In this document: one piece after another, positions 9,350 through 62,892 of the stretch
Numbering within the stretch: the stretch's first letter is position 1
How the letters are laid out: each line of letters starts with the position of its first letter
DNA from: Entrophospora sp. SA101
Lineage: Eukaryota > Glomeromycota > Glomeromycetes > Entrophosporales > Entrophosporaceae
Length of the DNA stretch: 64,000 nucleotides
Direction: 5' to 3'
Assembly (NCBI GenBank): GCA_958430865.1
Contig: CAUDNR010004245.1
Location: forward strand, 38,121 to 102,120
Translations under genes and position numbers: made by a program
Notes under the pieces: generated by a model
Seen by the model: the letters and a program-made list of their open reading frames with translations, nothing else
Told to the model about the DNA's origin: nothing
Databases searched by the model: none

Positions 9350-10510
9350 TCTATTTTTTTTTTATTTTGTTTTTTTTTTTTAGTTCTTTTTCAATTGTAA
9401 ATGATTTCATTAAAAAAATAATATATATACGATGCTATTATTCAATTTATAAAACAAGTTTTTGTTTGTTTTCTTTCAAGTAATCAATTACCTTTTTTAC
9501 TTCAAGAAAAAGTCTGATATAAACTTAGAAAGAAGTCCATACATATCCCAGCTATATCTGTTATATCAGAGATAGGAGATTACCAAGATTATTTTAATAA
9601 TCATTCAAAATTTGTTGTTAATGAAAATTCTAATGGACATAATTAACTGCATGTGAAAAAGAACTAAACAGATATGAAACTTAAAAAAGTTTCAATCATC
9701 CGAGATGAATAATATATTGTTTTCTAATATTTTCTGTGTACACAGATATTTCTTGCTTAAAGATAATAATAATGGAATCCTGAAATTGGGTTCCAGGAAG
9801 GATGTACAATAGTAATATCATTGCACTGTTTTTTGATGATCGCACATCCTTATTAAAGGATTGTCTTTTAAGACAGTGTATTCTAATTATATAATGCTAT
9901 TTTCATCAATTACGTCTTTAGATGGTTTGTTTTGCTTGTTATTCTTTTACAACAGTGGTAAAAGTAGTAGCTAGTAAAGTATTGAAGATTTGAATTTATA
10001 TACAGTATATTGAAACATCAAGAAAAAAATGAAAGTCCTTACAAATTACACAAGTAATTGTAATCATGAAAAGGCTGTAGATGAGATCTCAACGATTCCA
10101 ATTCTTTATATACATTGCCGTGTTTTAATGCAACGAAGGTTTTTAATCAGTTTGGTTTGTCATTTTTATAGGAACAACTGCCAAGGTACATTTGCTAATT
10201 GGCGCGTCCAGTTTTCTTAATAATGGAATTTGATATTTCAGAAGAAGTTGCTGTATCTATATGTATCTATACCAAATCAACTGCAAGAATGTTAACATTG
10301 CGAGTAATAGCTGCTGATCTTTAATCTTTGTATGGTGCAAGTCACCTAGTCCCGCAACTTGCTGCGCCTCGTGACCAATTTTGGGAAAAAACATCAAAAC
10401 TCAGAATTGTAAGTTATGCTCAAAAATGCAATAAAATCTTTATATCACGTGACATTTAATGGTGATACAAATTAAAAAAAATATTTATATTAATATTAAT
10501 AATATATATG
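9350..10510. other. Intergenic, no gene seen
   Basis: AT-rich sequence downstream of the potassium channel. Poly-T runs directly after the stop codon probably belong to its 3' UTR. Short open frames (for example 10029-10220) have no domain and look like chance. Confidence 0.5.
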
Positions 10511-10627
10511 GGGCATGCTGCAACAAAACCAGACAAAGTGAACATTGGTATTACCAAGAATTTCAGGGATCAATATTATTTTTTAACATCACGATTGTAT
10601 CACCATGTAATGTGATCATGATATTTG
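10511..10627 (+). repeat. Dispersed ~110-bp repeat, copy 1
   Basis: The segment starts GGGCATGCTGCAACAAAACC and ends near ATGTAATGTGATCATGATATTTG. It recurs at 29110-29218 and, more diverged, at 39561-39660 and 60037-60136. The conservation stops at about 10627, just before the foreign-looking block begins. In the later copies it follows the end of a surface-protein-like frame, so it may derive from the 3' end of a gene family or from a mobile element. Confidence 0.7.
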
Positions 10628-10647
10628 TCTAGACAAAAATAGTTAAT

Positions 10648-10905
10648 ATGAAACTCATTTACATCCTATCTGTTATGGAACCCAAAAATTATAGCACTAT
10701 TAGAAGTATTCTAAAAAAAGAACAAGGTGAAAAAATTGTTCCTTACATTTTCAAAATAAATGATACTCAGACACTGGAAGCTTATCTAAAAAAAGAAAGG
10801 ATTACCTATGAAATTTACCATGAAGAAAGAAAAATAATAAGCAATAAACGAACCTTAACATCAGCTCATGATGAACCAAGAAAGAAAAGAAGACTGGCAG
10901 AATAA
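10648..10905 (+). CDS. Small hypothetical protein, 85 aa
   Basis: ATG-initiated open frame of 85 codons, not recognised. The product is rich in Lys, Glu and Ile and ends in a basic cluster (PRKKRRLAE). No membrane segment or signal peptide is seen. It contains no Trp codon of either kind, so the genetic code cannot be tested. Its stop lies only 15 bp from the stop of the convergent code-4 gene, and the host repeat ends 20 bp before its ATG. That tight packing suggests it belongs to the foreign, bacterial-like block, but a fungal origin is not excluded. No good ribosome-binding site precedes the ATG. Confidence 0.45.
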   Translation: MKLIYILSVMEPKNYSTIRSILKKEQGEKIVPYIFKINDTQTLEAYLKKERITYEIYHEERKIISNKRTLTSAHDEPRKKRRLAE

Positions 10906-10920
10906 ACAATCAAATCATTA

Positions 10921-13900
10921 TTAATCATCATCATCATCATCATCATCCAATTCATCTTCTAAATCGGAAGGAGAATTTCATCATTGGAGAAGGGTTTTTC
11001 TTTTGCGAATAATTCAAATAATTCCTGCTAAGAGTAAAAGTAAGCCCAGTCCACCTAGTCAAGCAGCAAGATTATTCATTCTTCAAAAGCTTTCTTTGGA
11101 AGTAGGAGTTAATTTTTGGGTTTGATTTTTAGCATAACTATGGTTAATTCCGCCGAGTTTTTCGAAATAGTATTTTTTAGTTCCTGCTTCATTTGGACTA
11201 ACTCCATCTCCATAAATGTTCCAATCTAAACTTTTAGTTTTATCTGCTGGATTTCGATCAGCTCTCATTTCAGTTTCAATTTCTTCTTTCTTAGCATTGT
11301 CAGTTTTGATGTGATAATCAGCGACTGCTCCAATTACATACTGTGGACTGAGAGTAAAGAAATAGTTTAATTTATCTTGTTCAGCAACATTATCCTCAGG
11401 AAAAGGAGGAATTCCTTTTTTATCTTTTAAATAATCTTTGAGATGAGTAAAGAAAGGCTCAAAATCATCCAAATCATTCACAATACTTCCAATCTTTTTT
11501 AGTTCTAATTCATCTTTTCTAAAGAGTTTTTGGTCTCCAAAATTCTTTCATTGTTCTACTAAAGAAGTAGTAATATCTGCATCAATCTTGAAAACTGAAC
11601 GAAGATTTTCACTTCTTAATTCTGGATTAGTTAAGTAATTAGTAATCGCCAATAATTCTGCTTCTTCTTCTAGACTAATACCGATGATTTGCTGAGCATT
11701 ATTTAACTCACTTTTTAGTAAATTAAAATAAGTTGTAATGCTTTTCCCAGTTAGGTTTCTTCCTTCTTTTTTTTCTCAATTATTTAGTCTTTCTCAAAAA
11801 CTAGCACCTAAACCTTGTCAAGTGCTATAAGTAGGAAGTTTAGCATTTCGAATAGCTTCTAACTGTTCTACTTTAGTGAGATATCCTCTTTCAGTGGTTG
11901 TAAGGAGAGTTTCTAGTTTGCCTTCATTTTCTAAATCAGTTAAGAAGTAAATCAAAGTTCTAATCGCAATCGTTTCTTGATAAGTGATAATTTCTTGATT
12001 AGATGGATCAGTTAATTTATCTCCTAAATTTTTAAGTTGAGTTCGTAAGTGATTAATTTGATTAGTTTCAAAATCCTTAATTTGATTTTGGATTTGGATC
12101 AGTTTTTGTTTTTTATCAGCTTTTTGAAGACTAATTTTAGTTAATTCACTCCTTTTTTTTCCTAATTCCGCATGAATACTTTCTAAACCTACTCGTTTAT
12201 CAGCTGTAATAGTTTTTCATTCATTTCACACATCTATCATTTCATTATCAATTTCTTTATTCTTGACTTCTCTAGTTAATCATTTGGCTTGATAAGGATT
12301 AAGTTCATTACTTCTAACTTTTAATTCATCAAAACTTAAACCTTTCGCTTCCTCTCTAAATTTTACAAGAGTATCCATAGCCTTTTTCACTACCTTTTGG
12401 CTAATTTTAGTTCATTTGAGACAAAGCTCGTTAACCTCTTCCTCTTCAAATAATTTTTTCCCAGTCGCATCCAATAAATTACTGATAAATTTCTCGACAT
12501 ACAAAGTATAGTTTTTTTTTGCAATATGACGGTTAAAAATTGATGATGAACAAGTTAATTTCTTCTCATAAATGGTTATTTCTTCCTCTCTAATTCTTTC
12601 ATCCATAATCCCATCTTTACTAATTACCTCATCATAAGCATTAAATTCAACGGCTTCATCACTATTATAAACTTGTCAAAAGAATTTGGGAATTTGACCA
12701 TTAGCCCAAGTTAAGTGTTTTTCTTCAACATCAAAAGGAGCTTTCAACACATTTGTGCTATTATCAACATATTTCTTTCCAATAATACTTGCATCAGCTC
12801 CTCGTCAATACATTGTATAAGAATTATCTAAACTATAGCCATTCTTAAAAGGTAAACAACTCTTTTGACCTTTTTGTATGAAAGGACTATTTTGATAGTT
12901 GCTATCTTTGGGAAAGAGAGCATGCATGACATAAAAAATATCACTAATATACCTTCTTCTCTCTTTGAACTCTCCTTTACTTATATTCTTCTTTCTTTTT
13001 GTATTAGAATAAAGATAGCTCATTAAATCTTTATCACGTTCATTTGAAATTTTAGCATTTCAGTTTATAACTCTCTCAAAAGCACCTTTAAATTTTTTCT
13101 TATCACCAGCATCCCAAGCACAATCTGAAGAATCAATATATTTGAAAAGTTTATCTTTATCAATATCTTTGAGAATAGTTCAAATTTGCCCTACAAAATC
13201 AGTACTCAAATAAAGTGGATGAGTATAAGGTTTATTATTCCCATTATAACCAGTTTTGATAATGGAACCATAATGTTCAGTGGTAGCTGGAACATCAGAT
13301 TTATAATTTAATTCTGAAAAATTTTTACCATTTTCAATTATAAATTCTAAAAATTTACGACCTCCTGTGTTAACAATTCTAAGATCATCTTTTAAAGCAG
13401 TAACTGCAGTGTCAACCTTATTTTCTAAATTAGTTTGTTCTTGAAGAACTTGAGGATTATATTTTTTTTCTAACTCAGTAATTTCTTTGGCAACCTTTTC
13501 TTCTTCTTTTGATACTTTGGCAAAAGTAATTAATGCTTCCTTTAATTTTAAATCCAAAGTTTTATTGTTTTTTCTAAATAAGACAGTTTGGTATTCTTTT
13601 ACCATTTTATCAACTCTTCTTTCCTCATTTTCATCCTTTTCATTAACTAATTGGTAAGCAATGGAATTATTTCTTCTTTGCTCCATTAAAGCAACAAGTA
13701 AAGCATTACCATTAGTAGACAATCCTGTTTCAGAAGTTTTTTCAGTAACTAAATTAGCCTCTGCTTTTTTACAATTATTTAATAATTCAGCAGTATCTTG
13801 GAGAAGAGAAACATCCAAAATACCATTAGGAGTTAAAAGAGAACTATTAAAGATTTCTTTTTCTGGTTGAGTGAGTTCACCACCATGATAGTCAGGATAT

Positions 13901-13947
13901 TCCTTTGTTTTTTTGATTGTATTGATATCATTTTTATTGAATGTCAT
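10921..13947 (-). CDS. Code-4 gene: large coiled-coil-like, C-terminally anchored protein
   Basis: Read with UGA as Trp, this is one uninterrupted frame of 1009 codons (1008 aa). Read in the standard code it is cut by 17 TGA codons: 13180, 13060, 12805, 12676, 12412, 12280, 12226, 12217, 11818, 11794, 11776, 11548, 11083, 11059, 11014, 10984 and 10981 (lowest base of each). No TAA or TAG interrupts it. The chosen start is the ATG at 13947, which has AGGAAG 7 nt upstream; another in-frame ATG lies at 13986. The N-terminal ~900 residues are hydrophilic, rich in Lys, Glu, Leu and Asn, with helical stretches that look coiled-coil-prone. Near the C terminus a single hydrophobic segment (AAWLGGLGLLLLLAGIIW) is followed by RKRK and a tail ending in eight Asp. 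This suggests a tail-anchored or surface protein of a mollicute. Function unknown; no family recognised. Confidence 0.85.
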
Positions 13948-13954
13948 GATTTTA

Positions 13955-13960
13955 CTTCCT
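13955..13960 (-). promoter_or_regulatory. Shine-Dalgarno site
   Basis: On the minus strand AGGAAG lies 7 nt before the ATG at 13947. This is bacterial spacing and supports that start over the ATG at 13986. A TATAAT-like string lies immediately upstream but is too close to the start to be a confident -10 box. Confidence 0.6.
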
Positions 13961-14057
13961 ATATTATATTTTAATATTAATATCATTAAAAGATTAAATA
14001 TAAAGAATTTAATAAAAACTAATAAAGTAATAAAATTTGCAGTTGACTGAAATATTT

Positions 14058-14821
14058 TTATTCAATATCAGTATAAATTGGTTTGGGACAAGTGATATCT
14101 TTGTATTCATCTTTCACAAATGGGCGAATATTATGATAAAGATACTCTTGTCTTTTGTAGTCCAAAGGAGGTGGTGTTAACATTAAAATAGATAAAGCTC
14201 TAATTTCTTCAAAAATATCTGATTTCTTGGTTTTCAATAAATTGAATTCAGTAAAAGGTCCATTAGCAACTTCTTGAACTTTGACCACACCAAGGTTAGA
14301 TGCTTCAAAAAGAAAATGTTGATATTTTTGTATACTTGGTAATTTCTTGAAATAAATTCCCAAAATTGCTTTAATATCTAAATATTGAAAACCTTTTCCA
14401 CCTTCATAACATTGAGCTCTATTCAATCCTGCTGGACTAGACTTTTTTACCACCTCAACCACATGATCCAAACAATCTACTCTGGTTCTTCTATAGAGTT
14501 TTTTAATCATGCCAAAATTACCATCACATTTGAATTTGGTATGTCCTGGAACCATGAAATTTAGTTCAATGCTTTCATAATAACCACAAATTACTAAATA
14601 TAAATAAAACCAAACTGTTACATTATTTTTATTTTGCCCACCAGCATTATCACAGGTGATCTTTAAATGCTTTTCACCTTTGTTCAATTTCTTAATTCCA
14701 TCAAAAATCATACTAAGAGTGCCATTGGGTCCTTTTCCTATAGCTTCATCTTCATTAAGAACATAATTAATTTGTTCCCTTACTGCTTCATCTTGAATAC
14801 CAAATAAATGAACTTTACATG
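14058..14821 (-). CDS. DUF7869-type protein, 5' end lost in assembly gap
   Basis: An open frame runs from the gap edge to a TAA at 14058, at least 254 codons, with no start visible. From family knowledge it resembles the DUF7869 domain found in fungal and animal repeat-associated proteins. Key motifs are CDNAGGQNKNN, a hydrophobic segment, then FMVPGHTKFKCD...GMIKKLYRRT and later FKKLPSIQKY...FxF. The Asp of CDNAGGQ and the GHTKF motif suggest an RNase-H-like nuclease fold, which is inference. It contains a single Trp, coded TGG, so it does not reveal which genetic code applies. It lies 110 bp upstream of the code-4 gene on the same strand. Either it is a host gene at the edge of the foreign block or a host-derived gene inside a bacterial fragment. 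Confidence 0.75.
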
Positions 14822-14831
14822 NNNNNNNNNN
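14822..14831. other. Assembly gap (10 N)
   Basis: Ten N characters mark a scaffold join. The 50-60 bases just right of it are unusually GC-rich for this window. Confidence 0.99.
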
Positions 14832-38920: not shown

Positions 38921-39594
38921 CAAGAATCCTGGTGATGCTACTACTGCACTCACAACACCTGTAAATACACAACCACCACCTAAAGTAACTTAACCTGTAC
39001 CTCCTACTATAACACCAAAAGATACTACAACATTAGATGATCCAGTTCTAATAACTCCAAAAACTTCAAACACACACCACACCAAAAAGTCAGCCAGTGA
39101 TTCAAACTTCACAAGAAAATCAATAACCTACAGTAACACAAAAATTCACAGTATTTAGTATAAGTAACTCAATAATCTTCAACAGCATCACTGTCATTAT
39201 CCAGCAAACCACTAATAACTATAACTTTAACTGCCACATTGAATCAAGCAGGATCATCTCAAAATGTTTAATCAAACCACTACACAAGATCCAAATCCAA
39301 AATCCTAATAATACACCAAGTGATATTGCTTCTGAGAATGCTAATGCTAATGCTAATAATGATGATAGTAGTTTGACAACTAAAACTGCAGTAAGATCTA
39401 TTCCTATAATTATTATGGTATATGCTATTATAGGTATATGGGAATATAAAAAATCAAATAACAATTTATTGATAAATGGAGATGAAGTTGTGTTAAGGGA
39501 TAGCCAAGGTGATGATATCATGGGTGATCCATTCAAAAATACACTGGGTCAATATCATGTGGAGCATGCCACAACAAACCAGACAGAATGAACA
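38921..39594 (+). pseudogene. Relic of a surface protein (Thr/Pro stalk, TM, tail), copy 1
   Basis: The broken plus-strand frame starts MHKNPGDATTALTTPVNTQ and is rich in Thr, Pro and Asn. It then passes an Asn/Ala/Ser stretch to a hydrophobic segment (IPIIIMVYAIIGIW) and a cytoplasmic-like tail (EYKKSNNN...DPFKNTLGQYHV). Several stops interrupt it. The layout resembles the C terminus of kelch-repeat cell-surface proteins common in this fungal lineage; no kelch repeats remain here. The tail runs straight into the dispersed ~110-bp repeat. Confidence 0.5.
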
Positions 39595-39660
39595 TTTATG
39601 TCACAACGATCAAAATTGTTTAACACTACAATTTTACTACAATATAACATGATATTAAAT
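39561..39660 (+). repeat. Dispersed ~110-bp repeat, copy 3 (diverged)
   Basis: GGAGCATGCCACAACAAACC, then TGAACATT and the ACTACAATTTTACTACAATA block, align with copies 1 and 2. It overlaps the end of the surface-protein relic, suggesting that the repeat is the 3' end of that family. Confidence 0.6.
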
Positions 39661-40529
39661 GAATGCTTTTGTTTCTTCCCACTTATTACTTAACTGATTG
39701 ATACACAGGATTATCACCATGTAAAAGAAAAAACATCGTTTACAAATGTTATACATTCAAGTCCTGCATTATGTTTGAGCATCATGAGTTCAGGCAAAGA
39801 AAAAAGATCAACCTACAAATCTTTCAATAATCATTGTTAAATGCAAATTTTATTCTGTTAAAAAAGCAAATAATAAACAATTTAATGGTGAACTTTTTTG
39901 TGTAGGTTGTTGATTTGGCTATTGTTTTTTTTTGAACTTAGAAAAAACCAACCCTATGACATAAATCAAAAACTTGATGATGAAATAATCAATAAGAAAT
40001 TGAAATCAATGGAAGGATTTCAAGCAATTATTTGAAAAAAGTTGAGCAAGACTTGGCCTTTTTGTTCAAAATGGTAATGAAATTCATAAATTACATGGAG
40101 AAAGAAAGGATGTTCATTTTGTTGGGGTTTGTTTCACCCAATTCAAGGATTGACAATCTCAAATGATGAAGTTCGATATTTTAACAGGACAGATTGGTGT
40201 TAAGGCCTAGAATTTTGTACCCTATTTTTAATTAGTAAATTGAACCAGTTAGAATACCTAGTGCTAGGGATTGACAGTCTCGAGGTTTGCCCTATATCTT
40301 GACCCTTGTGTTAGCTAGTTTTGTTATAGAATATCAATATAAGTTGAGCATTATAATCATCATCATCACACACACACATTTATTATTTAAACATTTTTTT
40401 AATTCACTTCATTACAAACTTTTTTTAATAATTGAGTGGAAGGGGAGATAGAATAATATATATATTTAATATTTAATATAAATGTTTGCTAATATAAATG
40501 TTATTATTATATATGTTATTGACTGAAAT
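39661..40529. other. Intergenic, faint coding traces
   Basis: Plus-strand text around 39880-40200 (for example NNKQFNGELFCVG, later FKQLFEK) looks like eroded coding sequence with many stops; family unknown. The final 200 bp (from ~40330) form the 3' flank of the P450 gene. Confidence 0.35.
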
Positions 40530-42341
40530 TTAATTTCTGTGAGTTAATTTGACCTTCAATTCAACACATTGACTACCACCAAAAGGTTGTATGCGCATAG
40601 GTTTATCACTTACCAATTCAAATTTATATTTTTTGTATAATAAAGCAACCATTAATTTAACTTGATTTATTGCCAGATGTCTTCCTGGGCATATACGCAA
40701 TCCACCACCAAAATGTAAAAATGTATTTTTAATAAAGGAATCTTCATCAATTCCATTATTATTGTCATGATTTTTATTTTTTAAGAATCTTGAAGGATTA
40801 AATTTGGTTGGCTCATTCCAATAATTTGGATTCATGTGTAAACTTTGAACATTTATTGATATTAGAGTTGAACCTGGGATTTTGTAATCACCTATTTGAT
40901 CAAAATTTGCTGACTCACGATTAATTGCTGTTGCAAGAGGGTTCATACGTAAAACTAAAATATAGATAAATTCATCATGTGAAACAAATTATAAAAATAA
41001 AATTTATAAATAATAATAAAAATACAATTATGAATTAATACCTTCTTTTATTACAGCTTCAATGTATTCAAATTTTTTTAAATCTTCATAATCTAAATTA
41101 GATTTATCTCCAAATACTTTTTTAATTTCTTTAAGAATGTTTTCTTCAACTTCAGGATAACTAGTTGCATAATATATAAGACATGATAAAGCTGTAGATG
41201 ACTTTTTTTTCAATGGAAATTTTGGTTATTAATTTAATTAATTACATTTAATATATATATAAATAAATATAAATATACATACAGTTTGAATTCCCCCACC
41301 AAATGTTTCACTAAGAACATCATTAATTTCATCATCAGTCATTGGTTTATCATTAAAATCATTTGCAATGCCTTGAGTAATATCTTTTGGAGTATTAATA
41401 GTTAATAACATATTCAACATATCAGGTGTCAGGTTTTCTTTATCACTAATATTTTCAATTTTATCCCTACGTTCATTGATTAAATTGTTAATATATTCTT
41501 TTCTTGATGAATATTTGTTTAATAAATAATCTGAATAAATCTTTATCAATGGCAAATTACGTATATATGAAGGAACCATTGCATAATATCTCATACAAAC
41601 TAGTGCATCTTTTGAACCATCTAAATATTCATCCTCAGCAGTTTTAATTATGTTGGAATCTTTTTTACTGGTTTTATAATAATTCAATAATATATTAGAT
41701 GGTCTGTTTGTTGTTAATAACATTATATTTTCAGTGAAAGTTCTTTTAATCCAAGGCACGATATCAATTTCCAATACTTTTTTTTGATGAATTTCTTGAT
41801 TTATAATAGATTCTCCCATTTCATCAATTAAAGAATCCCAATAAATTTCTAAGTCTTTAAAAACACAATTTACAATATTAGCTGAAAACTTTAATACATT
41901 TGGGGCCATTATAGCTTTAGTGAGCATTTTTCTATTATCGGCCCATTTGTTAATGTCTCTATTCAGAACAATTCCCTTGGTGCTTTTTCCCATTGCATCT
42001 AGTCCTTCATTAGGTGGAAAACGTAACATGTAATTATTATTTCTCACTGGCTTCATGATATGTTCAATGATTTGTAGATTGTTAGTGATCAATTGTCTTT
42101 TAGATCCACTGTAAATTTCAACCACATCACCATATTTTAAATGTAATGAGTGAAACCATAATGGATTGTTAAAACGATGATAAAAGAGTTGATGTAAATT
42201 TCCTAATAATGGTAAAGGAAAAGGCCCTTTATAAGGATTTGGACGAGTAAAATAATTGTAATAATATTTTAATGATGAAAAAATTATTGTTATAAATAAT
42301 ATTGTTGCAGATGCTGAAATGATTTCTTTTAATGAAAACAT
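40530..42341 (-). CDS. Cytochrome P450 monooxygenase, copy 1 (intact)
   Basis: Haem-thiolate monooxygenase, probably ER-anchored. Three exons, 41283-42341, 41042-41201 and 40530-40954, with introns of 81 and 87 nt (GT-AG), give 547 residues. The N terminus has a hydrophobic anchor (~4-24) and a proline-rich hinge (PNPYKGPFPLPLLGNLH). The I-helix motif is GGIQT in place of A/GGxD/ET. The K-helix ExxR (EVLR) is assembled across the second intron. PSRF stands for the PERF motif and FGGGLRICPGR is the haem-binding loop with the Cys ligand. Everything needed for activity is present. The substrate cannot be inferred. A close paralogue at 61006-62827 is broken. Confidence 0.93.
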
Positions 42342-42608
42342 TTTTTAAAAATTTTCTAAATCAAAAAAAAAAAAAATTCGTGAGTAAATTCATTTTATAA
42401 GTAAATGAGTTGAATTTTTTTTATTAATATGTAAATTTAAATTTAATTCGAAAACATGTAATGTATGAACCGTTGTATGTGAAATTGAAATTGAATGAGT
42501 CAAGGAGCTTATACAGATCAAATCACACAAAAAAGCCTCTTTTTACCATATAGACATTTTAAAGCAGTTTTACAAATTCGGAATATTAATTATTGAAATC
42601 GCAATTAA

Positions 42609-47615: not shown

Positions 47616-49883
47616 ATGAACAAGAGACCAAGAAAAGAACCAAGCAATTCTATTAATCGTGGCAGACAATTTACAGGTGTATGGAGGCAATTTATTCAAG
47701 GTCAAGAAAAAGGAAATGGTATATATGAAGGCGAGTGTATAAGTTGTCATAAAAAATGGGCATTTGCAAAACCTGGAATCTTATGTTCTCATTTAGCAAA
47801 TGAATGCAATGAATGTGGAGAAGATGTTAAATGATATTACAATTGGATCATTACAAATAATATTCATGATAACTCTTCTGGTAATTTGTATGAAATTCCT
47901 GATGATTGGATGAGGTCTACATCAAATAATAGAAAAATTAGTAATAATGAACAATCTAAAGTTGATTCTTATTATGGTTCCACATCAATTGAACCTTCAC
48001 ATCAAAAACAAATTGATATAGCTTTATCTGTAGCATTTATTTGTTGTGGGCTTCCATTTAATATTGTAGAGAATCCTTTTTTTGTTAACTTATTAAAAGC
48101 ATTAAATCCTGGTTATAATTCTCCTTCTCGTGAAGTATTGTCAGGTAGATTTTTGGATAATCAAGTTGCATTTGTAAATCAAAAGATTGATAACATATTA
48201 CAAAATACAACCAATATTACTCTTGGGACAGATGGATGGACAAATCCAAATGGCTCGAATTTATGGAATTTCATGGTAATGACACCTGAGAGAAAAGAAT
48301 TTTTATATTGCATTTCTGATTTTTCTTCTGCCTCTCATACTGGTGAATTTTTAGCAGAAGAAATTAATAAAATTATTGAATGTATTGGACCAAAAAAGGT
48401 TGCAGCAATTGTTAGTGATAATGGTGCCAACATTGCCAAAGCTAGAAGGATTGTGACTAGCAAGTATAAGCATATTATTAATGTGAGATGTATAGCTCAC
48501 TGTATTAATCTGATATCAAAAGATGTTATTGCACATAAATTTGCAAAAAATTTAATTTCTAAGGCAAACATTATAGTAAAATATTTTAAAAAGTCCTCTT
48601 TGGCTAATAGTCTTCTAAAATCACAAATAGAAAAGCATAGAATTCAAGGTGGTATTATCAAAAGTTACGTGAAAACAAGATGGACACCTGTTCATGAATG
48701 TTTAGATTCAATTATACGATTGAAAAGATGTTTAGAAGAAATTCGTGATGAACATTCTACTTCAATTAGTAATAATTCAGTGATTAGTATTTTAAGAAGT
48801 AGAGCATTCTTTGAAGATGTTGGTTACTTGGCTAACACTTTATTACCAATCAAATTAGCTATTTTAGAAGTGGAGGGTAGAAGTACAAATCTTACAGATT
48901 GTTACATTTCATTATTAAGAATTGCAGCAGTAATAAGAAATTTACCATCTAATGATTATAAATTTTTTAGAAATCATTGTATTTCTGTTTTTAATAAAAG
49001 GTAAATTTTATAAATTTAGATTTAATTTTTTTATATATTCTCTAACCTTAAAAATTTTTTTTATTAAAGGTATAAAGAATTTGATGATCCGATTTATTTG
49101 TTAGCCTTTTTTCTACATCCAGCATATAAAGGGAATGGTGTTAAGTATGGACAATTTTATAATATTGTTAGTCATGCTGGTTCTATTTGGAAATCTTTAG
49201 GAAAAAATCGTGAAAGTTGGGAATCTTTGTCAACTCAGCTACGTCTATATAAACTTCAAAAAGATGATAATGGTGTTCCTAATGTTTATTCTGCACCATA
49301 CACTCCCAATCAAGATACTGTTATGAGTTGGTGGAATACGTGTGAAGCAAATCCAAAGCATTTACAACAACTTGCACTAAGAATTTTTTCAATTACACCT
49401 AGCAGTGCTTCATGTGAGAGAATGTTCTCAACACTTGGCTGGCTGTATGGTAAGAAATGGCAAAATTTGTCAATCCACAAACTTGAAAGTCTGGCTAAAG
49501 TTTATAGATATAATATATCAGAAGTTGCACAAACTACTAATCATTTGAAGAGAAGTAAGGTAGAAATGACACAAGATGAAATTCAAGATTTATTAAATAA
49601 ATCTATGGAAGAAGAAGAGGAAGAAGAAGAGGGTGATGATGAGGATGATGTAGTTGAGAATGAAATTAGTATTGCAACAGAAGAATCAAATATTCCCGAT
49701 TGTGAATTAGATGTACAAGTTGTGATTGAATTTAATTCTTGTGTTTTTGAAATGTTTAACGAAAACAATACAATAGAAGAATTAGATAGTGGATTTTTTG
49801 ATGAAGAGACTGGAGGTGATGATTATGATCCCATAGAAGTAGCTCATGAATCAATGGGTTTTGATGATTATTACAATGTATAA
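47616..49883 (+). pseudogene. hAT transposase, complete except one internal stop
   Basis: Exons 47616-49000 and 49070-49883 (69-nt GT-AG intron) give 733 codons including the final stop. The BED finger keeps ECISCHKKW...CSHLANEC zinc ligands. Codon 73 is TGA (47832), where the sense of the alignment suggests Trp. Downstream are the RNase-H-like core with TDGWT (first Asp) and SDNGAN (second Asp), then RCIAHCINL and the C-terminal dimerisation domain (SWWNTCEANPKHL...SCERMFSTLGW). A tail of Glu/Asp repeats follows. Only the single stop separates it from an intact enzyme. A restart at a downstream Met would lose the finger. It is the likely former source of copies A and C. Confidence 0.9.
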
Positions 49884-59396: not shown

Positions 59397-60070
59397 CAAG
59401 AATCCTGGTGATGCTACTACTGCACTCACAACACCTGTAAATACACAACCACCACCTAAAGTAACTTAACCTGTACCTCCTACTATAACACCAAAAGATA
59501 CTACAACATTAGATGATCCAGTTCTAATAACTCCAAAAACTTCAAACACACACCACACCAAAAAGTCAGCCAGTGATTCAAACTTCACAAGAAAATCAAT
59601 AACCTACAGTAACACAAAAATTCACAGTATTTAGTATAAGTAACTCAATAATCTTCAACAGCATCACTGTCATTATCCAGCAAACCACTAATAACTATAA
59701 CTTTAACTGCCACATTGAATCAAGCAGGATCATCTCAAAATGTTTAATCAAACCACTACACAAGATCCAAATCCAAAATCCTAATAATACACCAAGTGAT
59801 ATTGCTTCTGAGAATGCTAATGCTAATGCTAATAATGATGATAGTAGTTTGACAACTAAAACTGCAGTAAGATCTATTCCTATAATTATTATGGTATATG
59901 CTATTATAGGTATATGGGAATATAAAAAATCAAATAACAATTTATTGATAAATGGAGATGAAGTTGTGTTAAGGGATAGCCAAGGTGATGATATCATGGG
60001 TGATCCATTCAAAAATACACTGGGTCAATATCATGTGGAGCATGCCACAACAAACCAGACAGAATGAACA
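59397..60070 (+). pseudogene. Relic of a surface protein, copy 2
   Basis: Duplicate of 38921-39594: Thr/Pro-rich stalk, hydrophobic segment and short tail, with the same internal stops. Confidence 0.5.
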
Positions 60071-60136
60071 TTTATGTCACAACGATCAAAATTGTTTAAC
60101 ACTACAATTTTACTACAATATAACATGATATTAAAT
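60037..60136 (+). repeat. Dispersed ~110-bp repeat, copy 4 (diverged)
   Basis: Duplicate of the copy at 39561-39660. Confidence 0.6.
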
Positions 60137-61005
60137 GAATGCTTTTGTTTCTTCCCACTTATTACTTAACTGATTGATACACAGGATTATCACCATGTAA
60201 AAGAAAAAACATCGTTTACAAATGTTATACATTCAAGTCCTGCATTATGTTTGAGCATCATGAGTTCAGGCAAAGAAAAAAGATCAACCTACAAATCTTT
60301 CAATAATCATTGTTAAATGCAAATTTTATTCTGTTAAAAAAGCAAATAATAAACAATTTAATGGTGAACTTTTTTGTGTAGGTTGTTGATTTGGCTATTG
60401 TTTTTTTTTGAACTTAGAAAAAACCAACCCTATGACATAAATCAAAAACTTGATGATGAAATAATCAATAAGAAATTGAAATCAATGGAAGGATTTCAAG
60501 CAATTATTTGAAAAAAGTTGAGCAAGACTTGGCCTTTTTGTTCAAAATGGTAATGAAATTCATAAATTACATGGAGAAAGAAAGGATGTTCATTTTGTTG
60601 GGGTTTGTTTCACCCAATTCAAGGATTGACAATCTCAAATGATGAAGTTCGATATTTTAACAGGACAGATTGGTGTTAAGGCCTAGAATTTTGTACCCTA
60701 TTTTTAATTAGTAAATTGAACCAGTTAGAATACCTAGTGCTAGGGATTGACAGTCTCGAGGTTTGCCCTATATCTTGACCCTTGTGTTAGCTAGTTTTGT
60801 TATAGAATATCAATATAAGTTGAGCATTATAATCATCATCATCACACACACACATTTATTATTTAAACATTTTTTTAATTCACTTCATTACAAACTTTTT
60901 TTAATAATTGAGTGGAAGGGGAGATAGAATAATATATATATTTAATATTTAATATAAATGTTTGCTAATATAAATGTTATTATTATATATGTTATTGACT
61001 GAAAT
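60137..61005. other. Intergenic, faint coding traces (copy 2)
   Basis: Matches 39661-40529; no intact gene. Confidence 0.35.
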
Positions 61006-62827
61006 TTAATTTCTGTGAGTTAATTTGACCTTCAATTCAACACATTGACTACCACCAAAAGGTTGTATGCGCATAGGTTTATCACTTACCAATTCAAATT
61101 TATATTTTTTGTATAATAAAGCAACCATTAATTTAACTTGATTTATTGCCAGATGTCTTCCTGGGCATATACGCAATCCACCACCAAAATGTAAAAATGT
61201 ATTTTTAATAAAGGAATCTTCATCAATTCCATTATTATTGTCATGATTTTTATTTTTTAAGAATCTTGAAGGATCAAATTTAGTTGGCTCATTCCAATAA
61301 TTTGGATTCATGTGTAAACTTTGAACATTTATTGATAGTAGAATTGAACCTGGGATTTTGTAATCACCTATTTGATCAAAATTTGCTGACTCACGATCAA
61401 TCATTATTGCAAGAGGGTTAATACGTAAAACTACAATATAGATAAATTTATCATGTGAAACAAATTAAAAAATAAAATTTATAAATAACAATAATAAAAA
61501 TACAATTATGAATTAATACCTTCTTTTTACAGCTTCAATGTATTCAAATTTTTTTAAATCTTCATAATCTAAATTAGATTTATCTCCAAATACTTTTTTA
61601 ATTTCTTTAAGAATGTTTTCTTCAACTTCAGGATAACTAAGTGCATAATATATAAGACATGATAAAGCTGCAGATGACTTTTTTTTCAATGGAAATTTTG
61701 GTTATTAATTTAATTAATTACATTTAATATATATATAAATAAATACAAATCTAAATAAATATACATACAGTCTGAATTCCCCCACCAAATGTTTCACTAA
61801 GAACATTATTAATTTCATCATCAGTCATTGGTTTATCATTAAAATCATTTGCAATGCCTTGAGTAATATCTTTTGGAGTATTAATAGTTAATAACATATT
61901 CAACATATCAGGTGTCAGGTTTTCTTTATCACTAATATTTTCAATTTTGTCCCTACGTTCATTGATTAAATTGTAAACATATTCTTTTCTTGATGAAAAT
62001 TTGTTTAATAAATGATTTGAATAAATCTTTATCAATGGCAAATTGCGTATATATGAAGGAATCATTGCAAAATATCTCATACAAATTAGTGCATCTTTTG
62101 AACCATCTAAATATTCATCCTCAGCAGTTTTAATTATGTTGGAATCTTTTTTACTGATTTTATAATAATTCAATAATATATTAGATGGTCTGTTTGTTGC
62201 TAATAACATTATATTTTCAGTGAAAACTCTTTTAATCCAAGGCACAAGATCAATTTCCAATACTTTTTTTTGATGAATTTCTTGATTTATAATAGATTCT
62301 CCCATTTCATCAATTAAAGAATCCCAATAAATTTCTAAGTCTTTAAAAACACAATTTACAAGATTGGCTGAAAACTTTAATGCATTTGGAGCCATTATAG
62401 CTCTAATGAATATTTTTCTATTATAAGCCCATTTTTTTATGTCTCTATTCACAACAATTCCTTTAGTGGTTTTTCCTAATTCATCTAGTCCTTCATTAGG
62501 TGGAACACGTGACATATAATTACTATTTCTCACTGGCTTCATGACATGTTCAATGATTTTTAGATTGTTAGTGATCAATTGTCTTTTAGATCCACTGTAA
62601 ATTTCAAACACATCACCATATTTTAAGTGTAATGAGTGAGTCCATAATGGAGTATTAAAACGATGATAAAATATTTGATGTAAATTTCCTAATAATGGTA
62701 AAGGAAAAGGCCCTTTATAAGGATTTGGACGAGTAAAATAATTGTAATAATACTTTAATGATGAAAAAATTATTGTTATAAATAATATTGTTGCAAATGC
62801 TGAAATGATTTCTTTTAATGAAAACAT
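61006..62827 (-). pseudogene. Cytochrome P450, copy 2, frameshifted
   Basis: Paralogue of the gene at 40530-42341 with the same structure: exons 61769-62827, 61520-61677 and 61006-61430. Exon 1 is full length (353 codons) and differs from copy 1 at scattered residues. Exon 2 is 158 nt instead of 160: where copy 1 has CTTTTATTACAG (plus strand, ~41045-41056), copy 2 has CTTTTTACAG. The frame shifts just before intron 2, the EVLR motif of the K-helix is lost, and a TAA follows within a few codons of exon 3. Exon 3 still encodes an intact haem loop (FGGGLRICPGR). As written the gene cannot make a complete enzyme. A consensus error in the T-rich run is the main alternative. Confidence 0.85.
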
Positions 62828-62892
62828 TTTTAAAATTTTCTAACACCAAAAAAAAAAAATTTCTTGAGTAAATGAGTTGAATTTTTTTTATT

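Follow-up and report, generated by a model that had tools for sequence, protein, structure and literature searches.

The 64,000-nucleotide stretch of Entrophospora sp. SA101 considered here (the window; part of assembly contig C1739, CAUDNR010004245.1) contains a gene written in a code where UGA stands for tryptophan. The gene occupies positions 10921..13947 of the minus strand; with translation table 4 it yields 1008 aa followed by a TAA stop, with 17 TGA codons, three TGG codons and no internal TAA or TAG. A Shine-Dalgarno-like AGGAAG (13955..13960, minus strand) is situated 7 nt ahead of the ATG and is kept in seven of the eight full-length copies of the gene found in the assembly. The gene is the cargo of a multi-copy DNA transposon family residing in fungal sequence. 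A first-pass annotation of the window had described the frame, its code, the leader and the clean stop, and the table 4 translation bears all of this out. The bounds it gave for the gene hold too, but they cover only part of the feature, as the element extends from 10510 into an assembly gap at 14822. Its reading of the locus as endobacterial DNA inserted in a fungal scaffold stands in so far as a UGA=Trp gene does lie in a fungal scaffold; this is, however, not a one-off piece but transposon cargo present in many copies.

The frame is far beyond chance. The longest TAA/TAG-free frame in the window has 1069 codons, compared with a mean of 164 and a maximum of 307 codons in 200 first-order Markov sequences of 64 kb each with the composition of the window. 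The remaining five frames across the cargo span contain 30 to 94 TAA and TAG codons apiece. The earlier argument against a chance frame is upheld, and all eight full copies keep the frame open.

The assembly (101 Mb, 2,123 contigs) contains 18 matches to the cargo gene on 13 contigs, eight of them full length, with identities ranging from 98% to 34%. Each full-length copy has 15-19 TGA codons and none has TAA or TAG. Tryptophan occurs in every copy present at 11 alignment columns, of which six are TGA only and five mix TGA with TGG. A finding of TGG at such sites in fungal homologues had been named in advance as an argument against the UGA=Trp reading; for this gene it was not made, none of the 11 columns being TGG only. 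Another 25 columns have tryptophan in part of the copies, and a few of these are CGA-to-TGA changes. The dN/dS ratios calculated with code 4 are 0.30-0.53 in 27 of 28 pairs, near-identical copies included; C1709 and C1398, which form the 28th pair, do not differ over 994 codons. Compared with the window, C1709 has a flanking element that is 85-95% alike and a protein that is just 34% identical, and by sequence the cargo copies look like mosaics. In C185 (32797-37089; L015, L016) identity to the window (10510-14821) is 99.9-100% over the fungal flank and the beginning of the element, followed by about 5% divergence inside; either two haplotypes or a jump from one copy to another during assembly may account for this. 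Since C185 and C1739 have one flank in common, the eight full copies correspond to seven sites.

The hydropathy of the 1008-aa protein peaks at residues 962-980. This C-terminal hydrophobic segment, previously described as a membrane segment, and the acidic tail are present in all eight full copies. The protein matches no family in Pfam (E up to 0.1), PHROGs or NCBIfam (E up to 0.01) and has no match among PDB sequences, in agreement with the initial impression that it resembles nothing familiar. It has no match among 72,556 plasmid and 50,697 phage records, so that a plasmid or phage gene was rejected, and no relative was found when prokaryote genomes were scanned with the cargo alignment. 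One match to a viral contig (L028; 28% identity over 98 residues) was set aside; the frames of that contig resemble phage tail proteins, one of them beginning by chance with MAFNKND. When 5.8 billion proteins were searched and 8,000 candidates scored, 13 relatives were retrieved, namely one metagenome protein (P0008) and 12 gene models of arbuscular mycorrhizal fungi (Entrophospora, Funneliformis, Diversispora, Dentiscutata), every one of the latter shorter than the 1008-aa protein.

The element in the window begins with end A (10510..10548, plus strand), GGGGCATGCTGCAACAAAACCAGACAAAGTGAACATTGG, and runs into the gap (10510..14831) before end B is reached; homology among copies begins at 10510, where their flanks differ, and stops at the gap. 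This terminus or a close variant of it was observed in 12 copies with 11 different flanks, only C185 and C1739 being identical in this respect. The first 22 bases of end A, with at most three mismatches, have 1,337 matches in the assembly, and the reversed control has none. End B was aligned in five copies. The string ACAAAGTGAACAT is common to end A and to end B of C1424, C1798, C313 and C1061, and in C1424, C1798 and C1061 AAAACC plus this string occurs at both ends in inverted order, end A being the longer. C145 and C79 have a degenerate end B. On the other copy-bearing contigs, the frames flanking the element are fungal as judged by eye.

The order within the element is end B, DUF7869 gene, cargo gene, small ORF (in reverse) and end A. 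In the window, the 3' part of the DUF7869 gene (14058..14821, minus strand; Pfam PF25273, E=5.9e-16) is cut by the gap, whose 10 N (14822..14831) hide the remaining element. The small ORF (10648..10905, plus strand; 85 aa) is also present in C79, C543 and C313; it has no family above the Pfam cut-off, and its C-terminus contains a basic stretch that resembles, by eye, a nuclear localisation signal. Copies were compared using alignments of at least 150 bases, and C79 and the sister elements using alignments of at least 60 bases, over ten contigs. C79 has the same layout with a different cargo in place of the 1008-aa gene. As its homology to the window ends at 14051 and 10840, the cargo (10841..14050, minus strand) constitutes a replaceable cassette. 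C145 carries an element of 4.05 kb in which the DUF7869 gene is open over 588 codons and the cargo is coiled-coil-like, the first frame of this cargo having 11 TGA and no TGG codons. At least 134 matches to this second cargo family were found in the assembly; their proteins are similar in the N-terminal 40-50 residues or so and strongly divergent in their bodies, as though these had been exchanged. No tRNA was found inside the element at ten loci and in the window (ARAGORN, bacterial settings). Long N runs adjoin or interrupt several copies (C1010:1-3391, C1289:1-1387, C1838:86000-93530 and 98531-105999, C1061:42179-47516), two of them at contig starts, and these may be either gaps or masking.

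The DUF7869 gene is written in the same code as the cargo. The PF25273 score is 59 bits for the part in the window and 64.2 for C145, against a cut-off of 26. The window part contains no TGA; in other copies TGA codons are found farther upstream, at W218 and W314, and in some at W407. Among aligned copies, W218 is TGA in four of four and W314 in five of five, and C145 has TGA at both sites as well; W91, W139 and W407 are TGG in some copies and TGA in others. A query of 388 residues has at least 109 matches in the assembly (the best 106 of 1,131 candidates were scored). All 40 listed matches that cover at least 370 residues contain TGA, two to seven each, and 28 are free of TAA and TAG, whereas about 9% per copy would be expected to stay so under neutral drift, given the divergence observed. 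With UGA read as tryptophan, dN/dS between C145 and C1798 is 0.07 (374 codons with 77 synonymous and 31 non-synonymous differences). Five C-terminal pairs, of 160 or 250 codons each, have ratios of 0.11-0.13, the pair C1739-C1838 (9 codons, out of frame) having been left out. Diverged sisters adjoin the same terminus: C543 has TGG at W218, and C33 has a standard-code tryptophan at W314. The conserved Asp motifs, which we take to be those of a DDE-type transposase, suggest that DUF7869 may be such an enzyme. A PDB profile search gave one weak, unrelated match only, and a viral scan with the DUF7869 alignment gave no relative. The transposon uses a foreign code for its mobility-type gene as well as for its cargo, and it is neither a product of chance nor a simple artefact. 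We consider it very probable that this is a nuclear transposon family written in the UGA=Trp code.

Homologues of DUF7869 were found across arbuscular mycorrhizal fungi (103 proteins, of which 75 were compared and nine inspected more closely at the tryptophan sites). The Rhizophagus irregularis protein P0064 (GLOIN_2v1484099) shares the PF25273 domain with the element's protein at 36-39% identity and has tryptophans at W218 and W314. It differs in being annotated in the standard code and in having a longer N-terminus (660 versus 588 aa), whereas the element copies have TGA at these tryptophans. Eight database proteins stop exactly before residue 218 (P0031-P0036, P0043, P0070) and two before residue 314 (P0021, P0022), as expected if TGA is taken as a stop. 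The Gigaspora gene model P0020 leaves out W218, W314 and W407. In Diversispora eburnea, DUF7869 and cargo gene models are numbered consecutively and each lie on a contig of 23,585 bases, and thus the pairing of the two genes is probably old. The homologues in Geosiphon are on contigs of up to 2.36 Mb.

Bacteria that use UGA for tryptophan are present in the same assembly. Three 16S genes, on C293, C923 and C1138, match exactly a primer used to spot Mollicutes-related endobacteria (MRE); the genes are 83-96% alike. MRE of at least three 16S types are present, and the pointer to such bacteria in the first-pass annotation was apt. The same primer has no match in an external collection of genome contigs. 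C293 contains TGA-coded genes that we recognise as housekeeping genes, C792 and C1735 have tRNA(UCA) genes with encoded CCA (called SeC by ARAGORN under the bacterial code), and class I synthetase matches with TGA as the only stop type are found on C792, C1138, C293 and six further contigs. Altogether, 11 endobacterial contigs were identified (L035-L041): C293, C923, C1138, C792, C1735, C1734, C624, C1611, C2013, C2074 and C1204. The TGA:TGG ratio is 20:3 in four C293 genes and 17:3 in the 1008-aa gene. The latter therefore resembles genes of these bacteria (Ca. Moeniiplasma) in its code and in the strong preference for TGA; unlike them, it is located within a repeated fungal transposon and on no identified endobacterial contig, and its own surroundings look fungal rather than endobacterial. 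Among 125 matches to host P450 genes, none has TGA as the only in-frame stop type. A looser UCA-tRNA pattern has 30 matches in the assembly, compared with 23 for the control, and the tRNA(UCA) genes confirmed by ARAGORN are all bacterial.

The explanation that we favour, at a probability of roughly 55% for the whole of it, is that the transposon family shuttles between the fungal nucleus and the MRE. The element genes would be read, and thereby kept intact, in the endobacterium, the compartment known here to use UGA for tryptophan; the chances that they are translated there are about even. Gain and swapping of cargo may also take place in the endobacterium. Copies that reach the nucleus would integrate via the common terminus, helped by incoming transposase or by the standard-code DUF7869 sister transposases beside it, and would then be mostly silent. 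The 1008-aa protein with its membrane tail would act in the endobacterium, where a surface or maintenance function is our guess. This explanation draws support from the single terminus with its many flanks and matches, from the intact TGA-rich cargo and DUF7869 genes with low dN/dS, from the endobacteria in the assembly and the host P450 genes without sense use of TGA, and from the tryptophans of P0064, the standard-code sisters at the terminus and the gene pair of Diversispora eburnea. A wider picture can be offered only tentatively. It is that of a mobile element crossing between kingdoms, in origin a transposon of eukaryotic type, which may have adopted the endobacterial code, is selected for its function in bacteria and enters the host nucleus again and again by way of a terminus common with its standard-code sisters, carrying swappable cargo in the bacterial code and spreading across arbuscular mycorrhizal fungi.

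Several observations weigh against the shuttle. The element genes are found on none of the 11 endobacterial contigs among the listed matches of the 1008-aa cargo, the C145-type cargo and DUF7869. These lists hold the best-scoring candidates, so that all counts are lower bounds and a contig that is not listed may still hold a copy. The five endobacterial contigs of known length total 537 kb; at the nuclear density, DNA of that length should contain about 0.6 DUF7869 matches. The absence is therefore weak evidence, yet it is not what an endobacterial reservoir predicts. Among 100 of the 1,337 terminus places that were listed (exact ones, up to C734), the endobacterial contigs C293 and C624 are in range and neither is present. 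A Shine-Dalgarno motif was seen in none of four endobacterial genes looked at. No homologue bears an endobacterial name, most carrying no name at all. No target-site duplication was recognised on inspection by eye of C145, C79 and C1061. The copies C1424, C313 and C79 carry frameshifts or TAA/TAG codons, 12 of the 40 near-complete listed DUF7869 matches contain TAA or TAG, and the sister copies C33 and C543 at the terminus both hold stops. Finally, the CCA pattern that matches the UCA one revealed no clear fungal tRNA-Trp, and with such a weak control the UCA-tRNA search says little.

It is possible, though doubtful, that the fungus itself decodes UGA as tryptophan, by means of a nuclear suppressor tRNA, a tolerant release factor or a near-cognate tRNA-Trp(CCA), perhaps at certain stages only, so that the transposon would have a private code for its expression from the nucleus. 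This agrees with the presence of the element in fungal contigs and its absence from the endobacterial ones among the listed matches, as well as with the strong purifying selection seen when copies from different nuclear sites are compared. However, 15-19 UGA codons per gene would demand near-complete decoding, and the host P450 genes make no sense use of TGA. The tRNA(UCA) genes confirmed by ARAGORN are bacterial, which says little in view of the poor CCA control. If, on the other hand, endobacterial genes had been captured by a fungal transposon and carried dead, moved by standard-code transposases, one would understand why standard-code DUF7869 copies adjoin the same terminus and why several copies (C1424, C313, C79) are decayed. 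Such a passive fossil is unlikely, as the DUF7869 gene is itself in the UGA=Trp code with dN/dS of 0.07-0.13, most of its near-complete listed copies lack TAA and TAG, and the cargo ratios remain at 0.30-0.53 even in near-identical copies, which indicates purifying selection on recent branches.

An assembly artefact or contamination, with endobacterial DNA joined onto fungal contigs, is very improbable. The assembly does include endobacterial contigs, C185 and C1739 have the same flank with differing element interiors, and passages of PMC10507103 and PMC11423566 report both gene flow from fungi to MRE and contamination of Glomeromycotina assemblies by MRE; assemblies from sorted nuclei, a Claroideoglomus among them, are described in PMC10512289. 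But none of the 11 endobacterial contigs is among the listed matches, the Geosiphon homologues are on contigs of up to 2.36 Mb, and a misjoin does not account for one terminus with 11 different flanks, let alone 1,337 termini in 101 Mb. Misassembly had been one of two options in the first-pass annotation; a lone endobacterial gene or misjoin was rejected as the main explanation on the grounds of terminus, flanks and copy number. The least probable alternative is translation of the element in mitochondria, which can read UGA as tryptophan. In the mitoviruses of these fungi, according to PMC10470734, tryptophan is mostly UGG and rarely UGA, in contrast to the 17 TGA and three TGG codons here, which makes mitochondria a poor candidate; the AGGAAG leader also argues against them.

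The other genes of the window were assigned by Pfam to kinase, P450, hAT and potassium-channel types. A hAT-type transposon with DUF659 and hAT dimerisation domains is present at C1739 87188-88003 and 85955-87124 (window 47616-49883). Two near-identical P450 genes about 20 kb apart (window ~39100-42350 and 59600-62850), with an identical 154-aa frame upstream of each, appear to be a recent duplication.

In the open-licence PMC literature we found no paper on DUF7869 and no report of a transposon in the code of a symbiont. To our knowledge, no other nuclear transposon family has its own mobility-type gene readable only in the code of another organism. Plant nuclei contain copies of mitoviruses that use UGA=Trp, likewise nuclear sequence in the code of another compartment, but these are reportedly scattered fragments of RNA viruses, whereas the element described here is a DNA transposon with more than 100 DUF7869 matches among those listed and evidence of purifying selection. 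The Starship transposons of fungi also carry cargo genes; the present element differs in its size (4-6 kb), its DUF7869 gene and its foreign code, and no search aimed at a tyrosine recombinase was made.

For the fungi concerned, one immediate implication is that at least some public gene models skip stretches around tryptophan codons that are TGA in the copies described here. If it is the fungus that reads UGA, this would be a previously unrecognised UGA-decoding route in these organisms. If selection acts in the endobacteria, the family would be a natural vehicle by which DNA moves between bacterium and eukaryotic nucleus, and the difference in code would serve as a tracer of the direction and timing of the transfers.
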